A stretch of DNA of 64,000 nucleotides from Lachnospiraceae bacterium. GTDB lineage: Bacteria > Bacillota > Clostridia > Lachnospirales > Lachnospiraceae. Below the pieces are notes generated by a model. The model made no database searches and was not told the origin of the DNA. It saw nothing but the letters and a program-made list of their open reading frames with translations. Made by a program: the position numbers and the translations under genes. The stretch is from assembly GCA_017467805.1 (NCBI GenBank), contig JAFUKJ010000017.1, forward strand, positions 1 through 64,000. The letters are read 5' to 3'. This document shows positions 6,245-15,692 of this stretch, one piece after another. The stretch's first letter is position 1; each line of letters starts with the position of its first letter.

Positions 6245-8010
6245 TGGCAAAGAGAAATACATATTTTCAGGATGAGGTAATCGAAAGAAAGATTGATATT
6301 AGGCAGCTAGGAAGAACCTTGCGTTATGTCTTACCTTATAAGCGTGTATTTATGTTGGTGGGCGTACTGATGGTAGTGTCATCTCTTGCGGCGTTAATCC
6401 CTTCGTTGATATTGAAGCGTATTACGGATGTGATAATACCGAAACAGGATTATGCAGGGTTGGTTTATATGGTGCTTAGCATGGTGTTGCTTGCGGTGCT
6501 TGAGATTGGCATCACCTTTGCACATTCAAGACTAATGGGAAAGACAGGGCATTCCATTATTGCAAAGCTTCGTCAGGATATTTTTTATAAGCTGCAGGAG
6601 CTGCCCTTTGATTATTTTGATAACAGACCAAATGGAAAGATAGTAGTTCGTGTTACGGAGTATGTAAATGGTCTGGCGAATTTCTTTACAAACTTTGTCA
6701 TGATGCTGGTTATTTACATTATTAAGATTGTTGTCGTTACGGTGCTGATGCTTACTTTAAGTCCGACACTTACCTTAGTGGTGTTTGCAACAGTAATTCC
6801 TATGATGATTTGTGTATTTGTATTGAGATATACGATTAGGAAGCTCTTTGGTCTTCATAGAGCAAAGGTTTCTAACAGAACAGCTTTTTTAGTAGAATCT
6901 ATTATGGGCGAGAAGATTGTTAAGAATTATAACAGGACGGAGCTGAATGAGGAGATTTACAGAGAAGTTCATAATGCAAGTCTAAAGCATTGGAGGAAGA
7001 TATATCTTAGAAACGAGTTGAATACGCCGATTGTAGAGTTCTTCTGGAATACAGGAACCATATGTCTGTATGGCGTTGCTCTTTCCATGCTATTAAATGG
7101 TGACCCACTGATTAATGTAGGTTTGATGACTACATTTACTGCATATATGTCTCAATTTAGCGGTCCATTGACACAGATTGCTTTTATTATACAGAATCTG
7201 GCGCAGGTAAGCTCTAATTTGGAGCAGGTATTTGATACTATTGATTATCCTGTGACAATTCATGACAATGAGGGAAGTCAGGAGCTTAAGGACGTAGAAG
7301 GAAAGATTGATTTCAACAATGTGACCTTTGCCTATGAGGATGGCGTGAATATCCTTGAAAACTTTAATCTGCATGTAAGAAACGGTGAGACTATAGCGTT
7401 GGTCGGTCCTACTGGAGCAGGTAAGACAACGGTAATTAATATGCTGACCCGATTCTATGATGTACAGGAAGGCTCTGTTATGATAGATGATAAGGATGTG
7501 CGGGATTTGACACTTGCATCATTGCGCCGCGAAGTAGGTGTTCTGATGCAGGATCCATTTATTTTCAAGGGAACGGTTATGGAAAATATCAGATATGGCC
7601 GCCCCGATGCAACAGATGAGGAATGCATTGCAGCAGCGAAGGCGATTTATGCAGACCGTTGTATTGACAGACTTGCCAATGGTTATCAGCATATGCTGGA
7701 TGAACGTGGCGAGGGCTTGTCAGCTGGTGAGAAGCAGCTGATTAGTTTTGCAAGAATTATTTTGAAGAATCCGTCCGTGATTATTCTGGATGAGGCGACC
7801 AGCTCCATTGATACAGAGACAGAGAATCTGATAAAACAGGCATTGGATGTTATCATAAAGGATAAGACTGCATTTATTGTAGCTCACAGACTATCGACCA
7901 TTCGAAACGCTGACAGGATTCTTTATATTGCAGACAAGGGAATTGCCGAGCAGGGAACGCATGAGGAGCTTATGGCTTTAAAGGGTCTCTATTATGCGTT
8001 GAATGTGTAA
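6244..8010 (+). CDS. ABC exporter subunit B (membrane domain plus ATPase)
   Basis: 588-residue partner of the preceding exporter. It has six predicted membrane helices in the first 320 residues and an ATPase with Walker A GPTGAGKTT (about 388), a variant signature LSAGEKQ (about 491) instead of LSGGQ, and canonical Walker B ILDEATSSID (about 514). Together with subunit A this gives one consensus ATP site (subunit B Walker motifs with subunit A SGGQ) and one degenerate site. Whether it exports a lipid precursor made by the upstream operon or an unrelated compound is not shown. Confidence 0.88.
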   Translation: MAKRNTYFQDEVIERKIDIRQLGRTLRYVLPYKRVFMLVGVLMVVSSLAALIPSLILKRITDVIIPKQDYAGLVYMVLSMVLLAVLEIGITFAHSRLMGKTGHSIIAKLRQDIFYKLQELPFDYFDNRPNGKIVVRVTEYVNGLANFFTNFVMMLVIYIIKIVVVTVLMLTLSPTLTLVVFATVIPMMICVFVLRYTIRKLFGLHRAKVSNRTAFLVESIMGEKIVKNYNRTELNEEIYREVHNASLKHWRKIYLRNELNTPIVEFFWNTGTICLYGVALSMLLNGDPLINVGLMTTFTAYMSQFSGPLTQIAFIIQNLAQVSSNLEQVFDTIDYPVTIHDNEGSQELKDVEGKIDFNNVTFAYEDGVNILENFNLHVRNGETIALVGPTGAGKTTVINMLTRFYDVQEGSVMIDDKDVRDLTLASLRREVGVLMQDPFIFKGTVMENIRYGRPDATDEECIAAAKAIYADRCIDRLANGYQHMLDERGEGLSAGEKQLISFARIILKNPSVIILDEATSSIDTETENLIKQALDVIIKDKTAFIVAHRLSTIRNADRILYIADKGIAEQGTHEELMALKGLYYALNV

Positions 8011-8042
8011 TGTTTTAACAGATTTTCGTTAATACTATTCCT

Positions 8043-8570
8043 ATGAGAAGAGGAATAGACTATTATATATTATTGTTTTTTGTCACCTCCTTTATCGGTT
8101 GGATATGGGAGGTGTTACTTTATCTGTTTTGGATGGGAGAATTTATTAATCGGGGTGTATATCATGGCCCATATCTGCCCATCTATGGCTTTGCCTGCGT
8201 AGGAATGTGCCTTTGGCTGAAGAAGTATCGTGGAAGGTGGTTGGCGTCTTTTTTGATTGCGTTAGTGTTCTGTACGATATTGGAGTATATAAGCAGCTGG
8301 TATCTGGAATGGATGTGGGGGTGCCGCTGGTGGGATTATACAGAATATTTTTGCAATATCAATGGAAGAGTGTGCCTTGCGGCATCCCTTGGCTTTGGTA
8401 TTGGCGGTATGCTGTTTAATTGCGTATTCATGAAGTGTTATAACGAGGTGTACGCTCGAATACCGTCAAAGAGCGCAGTGATAAGCAGTGTTGTATTGGT
8501 TTTGATACTTACGATTGATGCTGTTTATAGTGGAATGTATCCCCATATTGGTTATGGAATAGGAGGCTAA
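8043..8570 (+). CDS. PF06541-type putative ABC transporter membrane protein
   Basis: 175-residue integral membrane protein with about five hydrophobic segments. It carries the conserved block NINGRVCLAASLGFGIGG, and an early GWIWEVLLYLF region, seen in the ABC_trans_CmpB / putative ABC-transporter type IV family common in Clostridia. It begins 32 bp after the exporter pair on the same strand and could be cotranscribed. The family has no firm biochemical role. Confidence 0.75.
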   Translation: MRRGIDYYILLFFVTSFIGWIWEVLLYLFWMGEFINRGVYHGPYLPIYGFACVGMCLWLKKYRGRWLASFLIALVFCTILEYISSWYLEWMWGCRWWDYTEYFCNINGRVCLAASLGFGIGGMLFNCVFMKCYNEVYARIPSKSAVISSVVLVLILTIDAVYSGMYPHIGYGIGG

Positions 8571-8624
8571 ATGACAAAAGTTTAGTATCATTAAAATTTT
8601 TGTTTAGAATATGTGAAAAAAGTA

Positions 8625-8653
8625 TTGCATTATGGGTGAACATAACATATAAT
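8625..8653 (+). promoter_or_regulatory. Sigma-A promoter of the hairpin-rich RNA
   Basis: TTGCAT (8625-8630), a 17-bp spacer and TATAAT (8648-8653). Transcription would start near 8660, at the first bases of the structured stretch. No protein-coding gene starts within 500 bp downstream. Confidence 0.75.
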
Positions 8654-8659
8654 AAACAC

Positions 8660-9085
8660 CGTTAAGAGGAAACTCTTGGAAGTAATGTTAAGGCGGTTAG
8701 AGCCTTATTGATAGGATGTAGGAGCATCCGAATTTTATAAGTTGGTAACTTGATAACCATAGTCACAGATAGCTGTGATTACGTTTAATTTATGACCATA
8801 TGGTCAGGTTTGGTGTCTTAGGACACTGTATTGTACACAGGATTGTGTACGACCCACTTGTGAAAATCAATAAGAGTAGTAAAAGTAAAGTTTTTTGCTA
8901 TATAGACTCTAATCATCTAGGTATTTCGACTATGTCGTGTTGTAATATGCTATGCGATAGCAGATTGTTATGTGGCAGGGAGAGGCGGCAGGAACTGTTG
9001 TTATATAGTTTCCAATATAGGCTGGCGAATAAGGTGAATTTGACAAGTGGCGATAGAACCCTTTGGGTTTTGTAGCCACTTTTAT
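8660..9085 (+). ncRNA. Large hairpin-rich noncoding RNA of unassigned family
   Basis: About 425 nt between a good promoter and a terminator with no credible reading frame. Successive local stems are visible: AAGAG-GAAA-CTCTT (8664-8677, GNRA loop), TAAGGC/GCCTTA (8689-8707), GGATG/CATCC (8714-8729), AAGTT/AACTT (8739-8751), CACAG/CTGTG (8764-8777), GACC-ATAT-GGTC (8794-8805), GTGTC/GACAC (8813-8826), GTACACA/TGTGTAC (8833-8850), AGAGT/ACTCT (8873-8910), CGAC/GTCG (8927-8937), GCTAT/ATAGC (8949-8961), then the terminator. It lacks recognisable tmRNA, RNase P, SRP or 6S landmarks. The style recalls ornate large bacterial RNAs such as ROOL, GOLLD or OLE, but I cannot assign it. It precedes the polyamine operon by 127 nt, so a long attenuating leader is the alternative. 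Confidence 0.7.
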
Positions 9086-9090
9086 ATTTT
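9045..9090 (+). terminator. Terminator of the hairpin-rich RNA
   Basis: AAGTGGC (9045-9051) pairs with GCCACTT (9075-9081), with an inner stem AACCC/GGGTT (9057-9061/9065-9069), followed by TTTATATTTT. It separates the RNA from speD. Confidence 0.75.
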
Positions 9091-9211
9091 ATGTAAAACG
9101 CTTTAATGCACTAACACGACTAAGTGACAATGTGATATTAGGACAATGCTTTAATTTAATAAAGTTACTGTGTGAATGTGAAAAGATAATAAGAGAAGGT
9201 AGGGCAAGAAA

Positions 9212-10033
9212 ATGGAAGGAAAGTTGAAATTATACGGCTTTAACAATTTAACAAAATCATTAAGCTTTAATATCTATGATGTTTGTTATGCAAAGAGTGC
9301 CAGAGAGCAGAAGGATTATATTGCGTATATTGATGAGCAGTATAATTCCGAACGTTTGACCAAGATATTATTCCATGTAACCGAAATGATAGGCGCCCAT
9401 GTATTGAATGTATCCAAGCAGGATTATGAGCCGCAGGGGGCAAGCGTAACCTTTTTGATTGCTGAGGAGAATATGATTCCCACTGGACAGACCAGTGCGG
9501 CAAGTGCAGCCATGGCGTATGAGGATACGCTTAATCTTACGAATCATAATGATGAGATTGTGGCGCATTTGGATAAGAGCCATATTACTGTACATACCTA
9601 TCCTGAGTATCATCCTGAGACCAATATTGCGACCTTCCGTGTAGATATTGATGTAGCAACCTGTGGTGAGATTACACCGCTTAGTGTGTTGGATTTCCTG
9701 ATTGGAAGCTTTGATTCAGATATTATTACCATGGATTACCGAGTTCGAGGCTTTACCAGAAACGTTGAGGGCAAGAAGATTTTTATGGACCATCCGATGA
9801 CCTCCATACAGGATTACATAGATAAGGCAACCTTGGAGAAATATGATGCCATAGATATTAATATGTATCAGTCCAATATTTTCCACACAAAGATGTTGAT
9901 TAAGGAGCTTGATTTGCAGAACTATTTGTTTAACTCAGATATTTACGAGATTGCACCAAGAACCAGATTGCAGATTAGTAATAATCTTCGTCAGGAAATG
10001 ATAGAGATTTTCAGTGGAACCAATATTTATTAA
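9212..10033 (+). CDS. speD: S-adenosylmethionine decarboxylase proenzyme
   Basis: 273 residues, close to the length of the E. coli-type (class 1A) enzyme. It makes decarboxylated AdoMet, the aminopropyl donor for spermidine. The pyruvoyl-forming self-cleavage site is plain: HLDKSHITVHTYPEYHPE, with cleavage expected between Lys122 and Ser123, leaving Ser123 as the pyruvoyl group. A conserved Cys lies in VATCGEITPLSVLD. AAGGTAGGG precedes the ATG. First gene of a six-gene polyamine operon; no clear promoter was found in the 127 bp between the upstream terminator and this gene, so read-through may matter. Confidence 0.93.
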   Translation: MEGKLKLYGFNNLTKSLSFNIYDVCYAKSAREQKDYIAYIDEQYNSERLTKILFHVTEMIGAHVLNVSKQDYEPQGASVTFLIAEENMIPTGQTSAASAAMAYEDTLNLTNHNDEIVAHLDKSHITVHTYPEYHPETNIATFRVDIDVATCGEITPLSVLDFLIGSFDSDIITMDYRVRGFTRNVEGKKIFMDHPMTSIQDYIDKATLEKYDAIDINMYQSNIFHTKMLIKELDLQNYLFNSDIYEIAPRTRLQISNNLRQEMIEIFSGTNIY

Positions 10034-10048: not shown

Positions 10049-11524
10049 ATGAAGAGTAATCAGGAAAAAGCCCCGATTATGGAGGCTTTGGAGGAATTAA
10101 AAAGTATGAGGATTGTTCCCTTTGATGTTCCTGGACATAAGAGGGGCAAGGGCAATCCTGATTTAACCAATTTTCTTGGAGAGAAATGTCTTAGTGTGGA
10201 TGCTAATTCCATGAAGATGCTGGATAATCTCTGCCACCCCGTGTCTGTGATAAAGGAAGCGGAGGAGCTGGCAGCAGAGGCGTTTGGTGCAGCGCACGCA
10301 TTTTTTATGGTGGGTGGAACTACATCGGCAGTGCAGAGCATGGTGTTATCTGTCTGCAAGCGTGGTGAGAAAATTATTCTGCCAAGAAATGTACATAGAA
10401 GTGTTATTAATATAATGGTACTGTCTGGTGCAGTTCCTGTATATGTGAATCCAGACACCAATCATGAGCTTGGAATTGCCCTTGGAATGAGAGTTTCCGA
10501 GGTGGAGAAGGCGATTAGAGAGAATCCTGACGCAAAGGCTGTATTTGTGAATAATCCGACCTACTACGGTATTTGTTCTAATCTTAAGGCGATTACGGAG
10601 CTGGCACATGCTAACGGTATGAAGGTGCTGGTAGATGAAGCACATGGAACGCATTTTTATTTTGGAAAGGGACTTCCAATGACTGCCATGGAGGCGGGCG
10701 CGGACATGGCATCGGTAAGTATGCATAAGTCTGGCGGTTCTCTGACACAGTCGTCATTTTTGCTGGCAGGACCTTCCATGAGTGAAGGACATATTAGACA
10801 GGTCATCAATCTGACGCAGACTACCAGTGGCTCTTATTTGTTAATGTCCAGTCTTGATATTTCCAGAAGAAATCTTGCACTTCGTGGTGAGGAGATTTTT
10901 GAGAAGGTCAAGGAAATGGTCGAGTATGCCAGAGCAGAGATTAATAAGATTGGTGATTATTATGCCTATTCCAAAGAGCTTGTAAATGGTGATTCCATCT
11001 ATGATTTTGATATGACAAAGCTGTCTGTAAACACCTTAAATGTTGGACTTGCGGGAATCGAGGTTTATGATTTGCTCCGAGATGAATATGATATTCAGAC
11101 AGAGTTTGGAGATATTGGAAATATATTGGCTTATGTATCGGTAGGTGACAGACCAAGAGATATTGAACGACTGGTCGGGGCGCTTTCTGAGATTCGAAGA
11201 CTTCATAAGCGTGACAGAGCAGGACAGATGACGGCAGAGTATATTAACCCGAAGGTAATCTATTCGCCGCAGGAGGCTTTTTATTCAGAGAAGGAGTCAC
11301 TGCCGCTTGCACAGTGTAAGGATATGATTTGTGCGGAGTTTGTGATGTGTTATCCGCCAGGAATTCCGATTCTTGCGCCTGGCGAGCTGATTACGCAGGA
11401 GATACTGGACTATATCGTATATGCCAAGGAGAAGGGCTGTTCCATGACAGGCCCTGAGGATATGGAAATCAATCATTTGAACGTAATGAAGGGAATTCGT
11501 TCGGCAAAAGGAGTTGAAGAATAA
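10049..11524 (+). CDS. speA: Orn/Lys/Arg decarboxylase-family protein, probable arginine decarboxylase
   Basis: 491-residue fold-type I PLP enzyme of the SpeA/LdcC family. The Lys that binds PLP is in ASVSMHKSGGSLTQSS, the PLP-ring residues are in VLVDEAHGTHFYF, and substrate-phosphate residues are near GGTTSAVQS. Length fits the short Bacillus/Clostridium type without an N-terminal wing domain. The neighbouring ureohydrolase and aminopropyltransferase genes favour arginine as substrate (agmatine product) over lysine or ornithine, but sequence alone does not prove this. Its TAA overlaps the ATG of speE by one base. Confidence 0.88.
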   Translation: MKSNQEKAPIMEALEELKSMRIVPFDVPGHKRGKGNPDLTNFLGEKCLSVDANSMKMLDNLCHPVSVIKEAEELAAEAFGAAHAFFMVGGTTSAVQSMVLSVCKRGEKIILPRNVHRSVINIMVLSGAVPVYVNPDTNHELGIALGMRVSEVEKAIRENPDAKAVFVNNPTYYGICSNLKAITELAHANGMKVLVDEAHGTHFYFGKGLPMTAMEAGADMASVSMHKSGGSLTQSSFLLAGPSMSEGHIRQVINLTQTTSGSYLLMSSLDISRRNLALRGEEIFEKVKEMVEYARAEINKIGDYYAYSKELVNGDSIYDFDMTKLSVNTLNVGLAGIEVYDLLRDEYDIQTEFGDIGNILAYVSVGDRPRDIERLVGALSEIRRLHKRDRAGQMTAEYINPKVIYSPQEAFYSEKESLPLAQCKDMICAEFVMCYPPGIPILAPGELITQEILDYIVYAKEKGCSMTGPEDMEINHLNVMKGIRSAKGVEE

Positions 11525-12375
11525 TGGAATTATGGTTTACGGAGAAGCACACGGAGAATGTGCAGCTTTCGATTAAGGTAGATAAGCAGCTTTACAGCAG
11601 CCAGTCAGAGTTTCAGAGGATAGATATCTTTGATTCCAAGGAGTTTGGAAGATTTTTAACCTTGGACGGCTATATGATGCTGACCCAGAAGGATGAATTT
11701 ATTTACCATGAGATGATGGTTCATGTGCCAATGGCAGTACATCCTAATGTTCGTAGAGTACTGGTAATTGGCGGTGGTGACGGCGGTACAGTAAGAGAGC
11801 TGATACGTTATCCGTTTATAGAGCAGATTGATTTGGTAGAGATAGACGAAGAGGTTGTTGAGGCCTGTAAGCAGCATTTGCAGCAGACAGCATGCGGTTT
11901 TGACGATGCGAGAGTAAAGTGCTTTTATGAGGATGGTCTGAAATATGTCAGACGCTTTGAGGATACCTATGATTTGATATTGGTGGATTCTACAGACCCT
12001 TTTGGGCCTGGAGAGGGCTTATTCACAAAGGAGTTCTACGGAAATTGCTACAAGGCGTTGAAGGAGGACGGTATCATGGTGAATCAGCACGAGAGTCCTT
12101 TTTATCCTGCTGATGCGGTGGCGATGCAAAGAGCGCATAAGCGTATTGTGGAGTCCTTCCCGATTAGCAAGGTATATCAGGCACATATTCCGACCTATCC
12201 GTCAGGCCACTGGCTGTTTGGATTTGCTTCTAAGAAGTATCATCCACTTGCAGACCAGCGTGTAGAGGCGTGGAAGGCATACGGCTTGAAGACAAAATAT
12301 TATAACGAACAGCTTCATGCAGGGGCTTTTGCATTACCAAATTATGTGGAGGAGATGTTAGAGCATGTTGAATAG
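11524..12375 (+). CDS. speE: Aminopropyltransferase (spermidine synthase family)
   Basis: 283 residues with the Rossmann-type nucleotide motif VIGGGDGGTVRELIRYP, the acidic VEIDEEVVEACK that binds decarboxylated AdoMet, and the active-site loop LVDSTDPFGPGEGLFTKEFY. It transfers an aminopropyl group from decarboxylated AdoMet to putrescine or, as in Thermus, to agmatine. The presence of speA and a ureohydrolase but no ornithine decarboxylase makes agmatine a real possibility. Coupled to both neighbours: 1-bp overlap with speA and 11-bp overlap with speB. Confidence 0.92.
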   Translation: MELWFTEKHTENVQLSIKVDKQLYSSQSEFQRIDIFDSKEFGRFLTLDGYMMLTQKDEFIYHEMMVHVPMAVHPNVRRVLVIGGGDGGTVRELIRYPFIEQIDLVEIDEEVVEACKQHLQQTACGFDDARVKCFYEDGLKYVRRFEDTYDLILVDSTDPFGPGEGLFTKEFYGNCYKALKEDGIMVNQHESPFYPADAVAMQRAHKRIVESFPISKVYQAHIPTYPSGHWLFGFASKKYHPLADQRVEAWKAYGLKTKYYNEQLHAGAFALPNYVEEMLEHVE

Positions 12376-13228
12376 AAATATAGAGACCTTTTTAGGCTGC
12401 GATAAAGAATTTGATGAGGCAAGAATCGTGGTGTTTGGCGCACCCTTTGATTCGACAACATCATACAGACCAGGTACACGCTTTGCCAGCAAGACCATGC
12501 GTGCAGAGTCTTATGGCTTAGAGACCTATAGTCCATATCAGGATTTGGATTTAGAGGATGCGGCAGTTTTTGATGGTGGTGACTTGGAGCTTTGCTTTGG
12601 TGATACGGGAAAGGCTTTGGATGCTATACAAGAGTATACGGATAAGATATTGGATGGCGGCAAACTGCCACTGATGATAGGTGGAGAGCATCTGGTAACA
12701 CTTGGTGCGGTACGAAGTGTTGCAAAAAAGTATCCTGATTTGCATGTGATTCATTTTGATGCTCATGCGGATTTACGAGAGGATTATTTAGGGGCAACAT
12801 TGTCCCATGCAACAGTACTACACAGAGTATGGGATATTGTAGGCGATGGTAAGATTTATCAGTTTGGTATCCGTAGTGGTGAAAGAGCCGAGTTTGCATG
12901 GGGTAAGGAGCATGTAGAGACTCATAAGTTTAGCTTCGAGGGCTTGGAAGAGGTGATTGAGAAGCTAAAGGGTAAGCCTGTGTATTTTACCTTGGATTTG
13001 GATGTATTGGACCCTTCGGTATTCCCTGGAACAGGTACTCCTGAGGCAGGCGGTGTAAGCTTTTTACAGTTATTGGATGCCATTTTGAAGGTAGGCGAGC
13101 TTGATATTGTTGGATGTGATATTAACGAGCTGTCGCCATTATTAGATGCCAGCGGTGCATCGACAGCAGTAGCATTAAAGGTGTTAAGAGAGCTTTTGTT
13201 GAAGCTTGAAGAGAAGCATATTAGATAG
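12365..13228 (+). CDS. speB: Ureohydrolase (agmatinase or aminopropylagmatine ureohydrolase)
   Basis: 287 residues of the arginase/agmatinase family with the binuclear Mn2+ motifs GGEHLVTLGAV, HFDAHADLRE and FTLDLDVLDPSVFPGTG. It releases urea from a guanidino group: agmatine to putrescine, or N1-aminopropylagmatine to spermidine. Which reaction it performs decides the route used by this operon. The ATG at 12365 lies within the end of speE. Conserved metal ligands appear complete. Confidence 0.9.
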   Translation: MLNRNIETFLGCDKEFDEARIVVFGAPFDSTTSYRPGTRFASKTMRAESYGLETYSPYQDLDLEDAAVFDGGDLELCFGDTGKALDAIQEYTDKILDGGKLPLMIGGEHLVTLGAVRSVAKKYPDLHVIHFDAHADLREDYLGATLSHATVLHRVWDIVGDGKIYQFGIRSGERAEFAWGKEHVETHKFSFEGLEEVIEKLKGKPVYFTLDLDVLDPSVFPGTGTPEAGGVSFLQLLDAILKVGELDIVGCDINELSPLLDASGASTAVALKVLRELLLKLEEKHIR

Positions 13229-13259
13229 AGATTTTGATTATAGAAAGGATAGAGGAACT

Positions 13260-14516
13260 ATGGGAAAAGCGTTGATTATCGGATGTGGCGGTGTAGCAAG
13301 TGTTGCAATTCATAAGTGCTGCCAGAACAGTGAAGTATTTGAGGAGATTATGATTGCAAGCCGTACAAAGTCAAAGTGTGATGCATTGAAGGCAAAGCTT
13401 GACGGTGGAAAGACAATCATTCATACAGCACAGGTGGATGCGGATAATAAGGATGAGCTTGTGGCATTGATTAACAGCTTCAAGCCAGATTTGGTTATGA
13501 ACATTGCACTTCCTTATCAGGATTTGACTATTATGGATGCCTGCTTAGAGTGCAGTGTTAACTATATGGATACAGCAAATTATGAGCCTGAGAACTTAGA
13601 TGACCCTGAGTGGAAGGCAATTTATGAGAAGCGTTGCAAGGAAGAGGGCTTTTCAGCTTACTTTGATTATTCTTGGCAGTGGGCATATAAGAAGAAGTTT
13701 GAGGAGGCTGGCTTAACAGCGCTTCTTGGTTCAGGCTTTGACCCAGGTGTAACACAGGCATATTGTGCATATGCGTTAAAGCATGAGTTTGATGAGATTG
13801 ATACCATTGATATCTTGGATTGCAACGGTGGCGACCATGGTTATCCATTTGCGACAAATTTCAATCCAGAGATTAATCTTCGTGAGGTATCAGCTCCTGG
13901 TAGCTACTGGGAGAATGGTCACTGGGTAGAGATTCCTGCTATGAGCATTAAGCGTGAGTATAACTTCGACCAGGTTGGTATGAAGGATATGTATTTATTA
14001 CATCATGAGGAGATTGAGTCATTGGCAAAGAATATTCCTGGCGTAAAGAGAATCCGTTTCTTTATGACCTTTGGACAGAGCTATCTCACTCATATGAATT
14101 GTCTTGAGAATGTTGGAATGCTTTCAACTACACCAATTAACTATGAAGGTAAGGAGATTGTTCCAATTCAGTTTTTAAAGGCACTTTTGCCTGACCCTGC
14201 AAGTCTTGGACCTCGTACAAAGGGTAAGACAAATATTGGCTGTATCTTTACAGGTAAGAAGGATGGTAAGGAGAAGACTTACTATTTATATAATGTATGC
14301 GATCATCAGGAGTGTTATCAGGAGGTTGGTTCACAGGCAATCTCTTATACAACTGGAGTGCCTGCCATGATTGGTGCGATGATGTTGCTTACAGGTACAT
14401 GGAACAAGCCAGGTGTATATACTGTAGAGGAGTTTGACCCAGACCCATATATGGAAGCACTGAATAAGTGGGGACTTCCTTGGCAGGAGAGTTTTGAACC
14501 AGTGTTGGTGGATTAA
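13260..14516 (+). CDS. Carboxy(nor)spermidine dehydrogenase (saccharopine dehydrogenase family)
   Basis: 418 residues from ATG 13260, chosen over an upstream in-frame ATG at 13206 because AAAGGAT at 13244-13250 precedes it and the conserved N-terminus GKALIIGCGGVASVAIHKCC starts here. The Rossmann glycine motif is followed by the saccharopine-dehydrogenase-like fold and motifs such as LLGSGFDPGVTQAYCAYALK. It should reductively condense aspartate semialdehyde with putrescine (carboxyspermidine), 1,3-diaminopropane, or agmatine (the carboxyaminopropylagmatine route). The decarboxylase follows 3 bp downstream. Confidence 0.9.
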   Translation: MGKALIIGCGGVASVAIHKCCQNSEVFEEIMIASRTKSKCDALKAKLDGGKTIIHTAQVDADNKDELVALINSFKPDLVMNIALPYQDLTIMDACLECSVNYMDTANYEPENLDDPEWKAIYEKRCKEEGFSAYFDYSWQWAYKKKFEEAGLTALLGSGFDPGVTQAYCAYALKHEFDEIDTIDILDCNGGDHGYPFATNFNPEINLREVSAPGSYWENGHWVEIPAMSIKREYNFDQVGMKDMYLLHHEEIESLAKNIPGVKRIRFFMTFGQSYLTHMNCLENVGMLSTTPINYEGKEIVPIQFLKALLPDPASLGPRTKGKTNIGCIFTGKKDGKEKTYYLYNVCDHQECYQEVGSQAISYTTGVPAMIGAMMLLTGTWNKPGVYTVEEFDPDPYMEALNKWGLPWQESFEPVLVD

Positions 14517-14519
14517 TCT

Positions 14520-15692
14520 ATGAATAAGACAAGTATTAATAAGGATGTTCCAACACCATGCTATGTGGTGGAGGAGCGTCTGTTGCGACATAATTTAGAG
14601 ATTTTAAGGCATGTATGTGATGAAACGGGCTGTAAGATATTGTTGGCTCAAAAGGCATTCTCTATGTATCATTACTATCCGTTGATAGGAAAGTACTTAA
14701 ATGGTATGACAGCCAGCGGCTTGTACGAGGCAAAGCTTGCCTACGAGGAGCTTTGCTCTAAGGAAATTGTGGATATTACAGGTTCGAAAAAGAAATGTGA
14801 GAATCATGTGTTTTCACCTGCATTTCCAGAGAAGGATATGTCAGAGCTTTTGGAAATCTGTGACCATATTGTATTCAATTCCTTTGCACAATGGAGGAAA
14901 TATAAGGCGCAGGCGCTGGCAGCAGGAGTAGAGTGTGGAATCCGTATTAATCCTGAGTGTTCTACACAGGAGCATTCTATATATGACCCTTGTTCAGTAG
15001 GCTCACGATTGGGAGTAACATTGGCAAACTTTGAGCCGCAGGAGCTTGAAGGAATCACAGGACTTCATTTTCACTGTTTATGTGAGCAGAATGTGGATGC
15101 ACTGGAGCAGACACTGGCAGCAGTTGAGGAAAAGTTTGGCAAATATTTGTATCAGATGAAGTGGCTGAACTTTGGCGGTGGACATCATATCACAAGAGAC
15201 GATTACGATGTGGATAAACTGATTGAAATCATTAAGTACGTGCAGGAAAAATATGATTTGCAGGTTTATTTAGAGCCAGGAGAAGCCATTGCCTTGAATG
15301 CGGGCTTTCTGGTAACAGAAGTGCTGGAAATCATTGATAATGGTATGCAGGTGGCAATATTGGATACCTCCGCGGCTTGCCATATGCCTGATGTTATCGA
15401 GATGCCGTATCGTCCGCCGTTATGCGATTCAGGCGAGGCTGGTGAGAAGGCATACACCTATCGTCTGGGCGGACCAACCTGTCTTGCAGGAGATATTATC
15501 GGAGATTATTCCTTTGATAAGCCATTGCAGGTAGGAGACAGACTGGTATTTGGAGACATGGCGATTTACTCCATGGTGAAGAACAACACCTTTAATGGTA
15601 TGCCATTACCTGATATTATTGCTTTGCATGAGGATGGTAATTGGCAGGTAGTGAAGCACTTTGGATATGAAGACTTTAAGGTGAGGGTGTAA
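14520..15692 (+). CDS. nspC: Carboxy(nor)spermidine decarboxylase
   Basis: 390-residue fold-type III (alanine-racemase-like) PLP enzyme, close to NspC/CASDC length. The PLP Lys is in the N-terminal ILLAQKAFSMYHYYP block, a glycine-rich stretch WLNFGGGHHITRDDYD binds the PLP phosphate, and GGPTCLAGDIIGDY carries the active-site Cys of the diaminopimelate/ornithine decarboxylase superfamily. It removes the carboxyl group from the product of the preceding dehydrogenase. Starts 3 bp after that gene and ends the operon; the following 59 bp show no strong terminator. Confidence 0.91.
   Translation: MNKTSINKDVPTPCYVVEERLLRHNLEILRHVCDETGCKILLAQKAFSMYHYYPLIGKYLNGMTASGLYEAKLAYEELCSKEIVDITGSKKKCENHVFSPAFPEKDMSELLEICDHIVFNSFAQWRKYKAQALAAGVECGIRINPECSTQEHSIYDPCSVGSRLGVTLANFEPQELEGITGLHFHCLCEQNVDALEQTLAAVEEKFGKYLYQMKWLNFGGGHHITRDDYDVDKLIEIIKYVQEKYDLQVYLEPGEAIALNAGFLVTEVLEIIDNGMQVAILDTSAACHMPDVIEMPYRPPLCDSGEAGEKAYTYRLGGPTCLAGDIIGDYSFDKPLQVGDRLVFGDMAIYSMVKNNTFNGMPLPDIIALHEDGNWQVVKHFGYEDFKVRV

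Follow-up and report, generated by a model that had tools for sequence, protein, structure and literature searches.

The 64,000-nucleotide stretch of Lachnospiraceae DNA analysed here (the window) carries, just before speD, the 5' leader of the polyamine operon of which this is the first gene, not a stand-alone ornate RNA. The leader is almost certainly a cis-acting attenuator of the polyamine genes. As similar RNAs precede polyamine genes in many bacteria, it probably represents a polyamine-sensing RNA switch that has yet to be described. Our full proposal, held with good though not complete confidence, is that of a transcription-terminating RNA switch that acts in cis and belongs to a class outside Rfam 15, likely a riboswitch that binds a polyamine, with spermidine as the first choice, and turns the operon OFF. 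Computation supports each of the following, as laid out below: a conserved structure and its covariation, the association with polyamine genes, the terminator and the predicted exclusive pairings.

The terminator of the leader lies about 120 nt before speD, the first of six operon genes, four of which (speD, speE, speB and nspC) pass an NCBIfam cut-off:

9212 to 10033, forward strand: speD, S-adenosylmethionine decarboxylase (NCBIfam TIGR03331, 406.4 bits, cut-off 255.8)
10049 to 11524, forward strand: Orn/Lys/Arg decarboxylase (Pfam OKR_DC_1, 224.1 bits, cut-off 27; no NCBIfam cut-off reached among the matches listed)
11524 to 12375, forward strand: speE, spermidine synthase (TIGR00417 and PRK00811 over cut-off)
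12365 to 13228, forward strand: speB, agmatinase (TIGR01230, 259.6 bits, cut-off 174.3)
13206 to 14516, forward strand: carboxy(nor)spermidine dehydrogenase (Pfam Sacchrp_dh domains over cut-off; NF043000 at 410.3 bits, below its cut-off of 800)
14520 to 15692, forward strand: nspC, carboxy(nor)spermidine decarboxylase (TIGR01047, 495.3 bits, cut-off 409.05)

The leader is conserved within the genus, the order, the class and the class of Bacillus testis. BLAST located it in 13 of 39 genus genomes, all of them among the 14 that carry speD (PF02675). A first covariance model, R1, matched 46 of 392 order genomes, and the loci obtained with it displayed a variable P1, P2 (UAUUGA/UCAAUA) and P3, as well as a P5 arm and, in the P4 region, two small elements. 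Model R2, built from relatives, has 158 positions, many of them invariant. Under strict filters that lose weak matches in large searches, R2 matched 53 of 392 order genomes (26 of 173 genera), 48 of 391 class genomes (35 of 223 genera) and 28 of 284 genomes of Bacillus testis's class. A DNA pattern for P5 hit at least 119 stretches in named genomes, and 80 of these loci were fetched and read; Faecalibacterium, Blautia, Agathobaculum, Acetobacterium, Paenibacillus and Bacillus are among the matches listed. Several irregular copies were seen along the way. In L061 (G012, about 1870-1820) the core is lost before speD and a terminator of the family's sequence is kept, as judged by eye, which amounts to a natural deletion. 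In L032 (G036, 7645-8220) two tandem copies of the whole leader are present, and an ORF that by eye resembles a sugar O-acetyltransferase stands between the tandem leader and speD. In genome G001 the 5' part of the core is partially matched a second time (L043, contig C82 1786-1838; 79% identity, query 19-75, E 6e-4), on a contig other than that of its speD leader. Loci L389-L391 are divergent: their 5' part differs, yet they retain the CUUGUGAAA strand and a P5-like arm, and the same operon follows.

The association with polyamine genes extends well beyond the genus. We examined 190 out-of-genus loci from four overlapping sets (44, 52, 14 and 80 loci, some genomes being reached twice). The first downstream gene belongs to polyamine biosynthesis in 156 of them, potA of a potABCD-type importer lies downstream in 27, two loci (L137 and L237) precede neither gene set and five have less than 500 nt of DNA left. 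Genes of one pathway are thus found downstream across taxa in 183 of the 190 loci, as is typical of riboswitches. In Bacillus testis's class, 14 of the 28 genomes with a match were read, and polyamine biosynthesis genes come next in all 14. At L104, L188, L204, L392, L393 and L395-L397, only CASDH-nspC was found downstream. The PotA of L194 passes two curated cut-offs, and the other pot operons were assigned through their similarity to L194. Among six importer-type genomes tested for nspC, four of which are at least 90% complete and at most 5% contaminated, none had a match over the cut-off and five had weak matches below it. By eye, the ORFs downstream of L137, the weakest R1 match, and of L237 look secreted- or lipoprotein-like.

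The initial annotation had described an independently promoted RNA of no recognised family, pointed to large ornate RNAs such as ROOL, GOLLD and OLE, and offered a regulatory leader of the polyamine operon as a second possibility. What it observed is confirmed; of its interpretations, it is the latter that gene association, covariation and a shared terminator/antiterminator anatomy strongly support. No Rfam 15 family reached its gathering threshold anywhere in the window, in agreement with the earlier statement that landmarks of tmRNA, RNase P, SRP and 6S RNA are missing, and ROOL, GOLLD and OLE are likewise unmatched; three sub-threshold matches fell within 8500-9250, at E 2.2 to 9.4. The phrase "no recognised family" is true of the core domain in Rfam 15, yet a known family, RF02440, is its usual 5' neighbour in relatives. 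A stand-alone ornate RNA or a trans-acting sRNA would account for the leader's own promoter and strong terminator, and RF02440 is filed by Rfam as an sRNA; however, a terminated leader is expected to look like an sRNA anyway. The 183 loci that precede polyamine genes, the antiterminator complementarity and the lack of an Rfam match all argue against such an RNA, and the conserved part proves to be a compact leader core rather than a large ornate structure. We regard a stand-alone RNA as very improbable.

The polyamine leader itself is composed of the following features:

8625 to 8653, forward strand: promoter TTGCAT-17-TATAAT, by its letters in the sequence (TTGCAT 8625-8630, TATAAT 8648-8653)
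8664 to 8677, forward strand: 5' hairpin with a GAAA tetraloop, present in the sequence; peripheral, 5' of the common core
8690 to 8706, forward strand: P1 hairpin, AAGGC/GCCUU in the window with a stem that varies elsewhere; U8706 is common to P2
8706 to 8872, forward strand: P2, UAUUGA 8706-8711 with UCAAUA 8867-8872; closes the core
8714 to 8729, forward strand: P3 hairpin; both-sided changes in 5 of 5 pairs
8733 to 8865, forward strand: P4, UUUUAUAAGU 8733-8742 with ACUUGUGAAA 8856-8865
8739 to 8758, forward strand: P4a element, AAGUU/AACUU and GGU/ACC; possible small pseudoknot
8760 to 8829, forward strand: three extra hairpins, found in the window genome and G011 only among the 12 genus leaders aligned
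8833 to 8850, forward strand: P4b hairpin; both-sided changes in 4 of 4 pairs, 85.5% of cells paired
8854 to 8861, forward strand: putative antiterminator strand CCACUUGU, complementary to ACAAGUGG at 9043-9050
8873 to 8910, forward strand: P5 arm, AGAGU-AGUAAA/UUUGCU-AUAUAG-ACUCU; 98.5% and 93.2% of cells paired
8918 to 9042, forward strand: variable spacer from core to terminator, 42-59 nt in 10 of 13 genus leaders and longer in the window and G011
9043 to 9090, forward strand: intrinsic terminator, with 5' arm ACAAGUGGC 9043-9051, 3' arm GCCACUU 9075-9081 and a U tract

The promoter letters given by the initial annotation are in place, and all 13 genus leaders read have TTGNNN-17-TATAAT 5' of the core. 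TTGCAT matches TTGACA at three of six positions, the site is absent from the output of a generic promoter scan of the window, and promoter-like matches in the leader stretch are no commoner than in shuffles (9 against 10.3 expected); support for the promoter therefore comes from its conservation. The segment 8655-9095 folds at -140.2 kcal/mol (z -6.1, with none of 100 shuffles as low). The stem with a GNRA loop noticed earlier corresponds to the GAAA hairpin at 8664-8677. The dozen consecutive local stems held up in part: the named stems are present and the fold is unusually stable by its z score, but several stems are peripheral to the conserved core, the hairpins at 8760-8829 and the variable spacer at 8918-9042 being peripheral parts of the window leader.

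The view that no convincing protein is encoded also stands: each of the three frames of the consensus core contains stops, and no reading frame was found to be conserved. Attenuation by a leader peptide would draw on a 91-aa ORF at 8800-9075 in the window and on 57 of 195 loci in which some sense ORF covers at least 90 nt of the core. The remaining 138 loci have no such ORF, the stops of the consensus core interrupt every frame, and the sequence changes follow base pairs, which makes a leader peptide scarcely credible.

The conserved core occupies about 8690-8914 in the window. Of 14 leader copies measured, 13 have a core of 108-229 nt, and an insertion brings the other to 326 nt. Covariation was assessed on 100 chosen loci, near-duplicates being left out, all 100 of which matched R2; the alignment was fitted to the R2 model itself and the shuffles take no account of relatedness. 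On this alignment 94.4% of cells are paired, against 85.4% in shuffles, and 288 cells have changed on both sides, against 67.6 ± 12.6 (none of 500 shuffles as high), with both-sided change in 29 of 36 pairs. None of the outcomes that the initial annotation had listed as refuting was obtained: the RNA is conserved in relatives, pairs covary, no reading frame proved conserved and no Rfam family matches it. When the partner was slid by one column, pairing fell to 38% and double changes to at most 63. A MAFFT alignment of 20 loci yielded 12 double changes against 5.0 ± 1.7 in shuffles (0 of 500), and there a one-column slide reached 13 double changes, at 38% pairing against 93%. Within the genus no covariation signal was detected among 12 leaders, 151 of 500 shuffles being as good, because the core is nearly invariant there. 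A conserved structured RNA with covariation, weaker on 20 loci, thus resides in the 5' leader, as in riboswitches.

The stems differ in how they are supported. On the 100 loci, P1 has both-sided changes in all six pairs with 88.8% of cells paired, and P2 is paired in 99.2% of cells and nearly invariant. The GGUU/AACC-type pairs of P4a show both-sided changes in four of four pairs over the same loci, and its AAGU/ACUU pairs show none among 20 loci. P4 is a ten-base-pair helix outside the covariance model. At least nine of its ten pairs are kept in 88 of the 93 rows with letters there and 97.4% of cells are paired, with both-sided change in one pair of ten. Its strands are almost invariant, with few G-U/A-U exchanges (L204, L206, L216, L237), so that covariation contributes less to the case for the predicted helix than does the complementarity between its two conserved strands. 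The 5' strand of P4 is missing in 6 of the 12 aligned genus leaders (G021, G035, G033, G002, G034 and G023), all of which retain ACUUGUGAAA or nearly so. P5 is shortened, replaced or missing in several loci. In L042 (G024, 7809-8135) its apical loop holds well over 100 nt of extra sequence with ends that form inverted repeats by eye, possibly a small mobile element.

A nested long-range closing stem, GRUURGAG/CUCURRUC, came out of RNAalifold on the 12 genus leaders and entered model R1. It was dropped as a general fold, as relatives have a longer P1 hairpin at this place and the first two outgroup loci read, L094 and L095, lack the pairing by eye. In the window's genus, the P1 loop GGUUAGA (8695-8701) is complementary to UCUAAUC (8908-8914) and the pairing holds in 100% of cells of the 12 leaders; it may be a loop contact specific to the genus. 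Separately, 79 of 157 outgroup loci, L094, L095 and L392-L399 among them, have a GCARAU element upstream of the core, where shuffles give 16.9. The element is complementary to the P5 3' strand (AUUUGC) and could form an extra switch helix; the longest pairing run between them is at least nine in 82 of 157 loci, a modest difference from the 42.7 of shuffles. The same letters occur in 5 of 13 loci of the window's genus, where by eye they lie inside the promoter.

A terminator at 9045-9090 had been proposed and was found at 9043-9090, with a hairpin of -21.5 kcal/mol. Terminator-like hairpins occur within 420 nt in 191 of the 192 loci (of 195) that have at least 150 nt of downstream DNA, as compared to 77 of 192 shuffles, one for each locus, and 76 of 183 stretches located 700-1120 nt further down. 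The ACUUGUG strand of the core is nearly invariant; it pairs within the core and is also complementary to the terminator 5' arm, and many terminator 5' arms contain a CAAGU-like motif complementary to it. Among 183 loci with a terminator within 250 nt and an ACUUGUG anchor, one mismatch being allowed, a count that includes a few rows with a wrong anchor stretch (e.g. L104, L105, L270, L284), the ACUUGUG segment forms a run of at least six pairs with the 5' arm in 144; the number drops to 55.8 when the arms are shuffled and to 33 when 3' arms are taken instead. The run is shorter than six in the other 39.

The fit between antiterminator and arm is partly specific to the locus. For 160 loci with a terminator within 200 nt and an exact anchor, near-identical rows being removed, the duplex with the own arm has -15.1 kcal/mol; permuting the arms among loci gives -11.86 ± 0.19, and -12.57 at best in 2000 permutations; these loci mix genus and outgroup, the four outgroup sets overlap and the permutations take no account of relatedness. 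The 17 nt upstream of ACUUGUG alone fit their own arm modestly (-9.3 against -7.8 ± 0.17 kcal/mol), and the own arm, with these 17 nt and without ACUUGUG, has a median rank of 55 out of 160. Folded up to 9060, the window RNA has two alternative structures of -115.3 and -114.9 kcal/mol, 0.4 kcal/mol apart. Terminator and antiterminator are thus predicted to be mutually exclusive, as in many riboswitches: being complementary to both, ACUUGUG could sit either in P4, leaving the terminator free (OFF), or in the antiterminator (ON).

The following mechanism can be envisioned. Without ligand, the ACUUGUG strand would pair with the terminator 5' arm (8854-8861 with 9043-9050), so that the terminator could not form and the operon would be transcribed. 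With ligand, the core would be stabilised (P2, P3 and the P4 strands), ACUUGUG would be withheld, the terminator would form and a leader RNA of about 430 nt would be released. We infer direct sensing of a small molecule, spermidine as the ligand and the OFF direction. A structured leader with a terminator switch is common to synthesis and import operons, which suggests a polyamine OFF riboswitch, and a polyamine is the likely ligand because the end product is what these operons share.

Two other sensors have to be weighed. The RNA might respond to another metabolite of the pathway (putrescine, agmatine, SAM, decarboxylated SAM or MTA), these being substrates or products of enzymes in the same operon; putrescine is in addition a usual substrate of PotABCD. 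SAM, decarboxylated SAM and MTA would leave unexplained both the loci with only CASDH-nspC and the 27 loci with a pot importer, and no SAM riboswitch family matched at E up to 10 in 8500-9250 or at E up to 1 in 20 homologous loci. We consider a ligand other than spermidine unlikely, if worth keeping in mind. A protein that binds the leader and controls termination is a slightly less probable alternative still. The anatomy of an attenuator does not tell what is sensed, and conserved RNA hairpins can serve as protein sites. Yet a model of 158 positions, many invariant, would seem more than simple protein sites usually need, and this model is kept in 26 of 173 order genera, 35 of 223 class genera, and Bacillus and Paenibacillus. 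The polyamine riboswitch remains our preferred reading; against it stand the genus leaders without the P4 5' strand, the loci without P5, the short antiterminator runs and the neighbours of L137 and L237.

The domain RF02440 (SpF59_sRNA) is a 54-nt model filed as an sRNA, "ldcC RNA" being Rfam's own label. It matched 34 of 392 order genomes, and in all 34 its 3' end lies between 10 nt inside and 35 nt before the R2 match, as in L096, L097 and L104, for example. RF02440 also adjoins the core domain in 11 of 20 loci of a separate scan and in 6 of 11 loci of Bacillus testis's class, including L386, whose operon is cad-speE-CASDH-nspC. In the genome of L237, it lies 35 nt upstream of the model match. 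Of the R2-positive order genomes, 19 of 53 have no RF02440 match, and at its threshold of 37.2 bits there is none in the window; nor was one found in the genomes G000 and G036 or at the G035 locus (L006). Since it adjoins the core domain in 34 of 34 cases, this suggests that, in the sampled genomes at least, the RF02440 model covers only the 5' portion of a leader that extends further. The two have the same operons downstream, with RF02440 at the 5' end of the core domain, but its 54-nt model ends about where the core domain starts. We lean towards the view that the core domain and the 54-nt ldcC domain make up a single composite sensor, which would be the main natural polyamine riboswitch in Clostridia and many Bacilli and would have no structural relationship with the SAM-I-derived one. 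If so, the streptococcal "sRNA" SpF59 would correspond to the 5' portion of a riboswitch leader after termination, and the form in the window's genus would be a reduced one that lacks the ldcC half.

RNA sensors for polyamines have long been expected, because polyamines are abundant and bind RNA strongly. If our reading is true, a polyamine switch would be common, present in 48 of 391 class genomes and 28 of 284 in Bacillus testis's class, with a mechanism down to named bases and a directly testable ligand, and it would account for an RNA family that Rfam lists as an sRNA. Polyamines made by gut bacteria reach the host, and the switch would bear on this supply.

In the literature, no title or abstract among the papers listed describes the leader RNA; it may be mentioned earlier in surveys of candidate RNA motifs, and polyamine terms do not occur in three papers (PMC11109978, PMC2864571, PMC6429828). 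The speF leader, odc1 and potE motifs are, like the leader, RNA motifs before polyamine genes (PMC8632094, PMC11477304). They differ in genes and structures, speF and odc1 being described in alphaproteobacteria and potE in Veillonella, and are set apart by these descriptions and by the lack of an Rfam match here. The ABC-leader of potABCD in Haemophilus and Pasteurella shares a conserved structure and a premature terminator, but belongs to Gammaproteobacteria and is set apart by its description in PMC2965389. The closest parallel is the spermidine riboswitch, a SAM-I variant found before speD, speE, speB or ldcC that terminates transcription with spermidine (Salvail et al. 2023, PMC10853860). 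That paper lists 13 examples from seven Gram-positive genera and metagenomes, with a four-stem SAM-I fold, and its authors state that further classes seem certain to await discovery. The window leader is not a member of this class, lacking the SAM-I aptamer fold and sequence. It has no SAM-I match, has other conserved sequence and helices, and occurs in many more genomes. The two are alike in lying upstream of speD, speE, speB or a lysine decarboxylase and in a terminator/antiterminator platform, the OFF direction being proven there and proposed here. By analogy with PMC10853860, the leader is best explained as a polyamine OFF riboswitch that would parallel this class with another fold.
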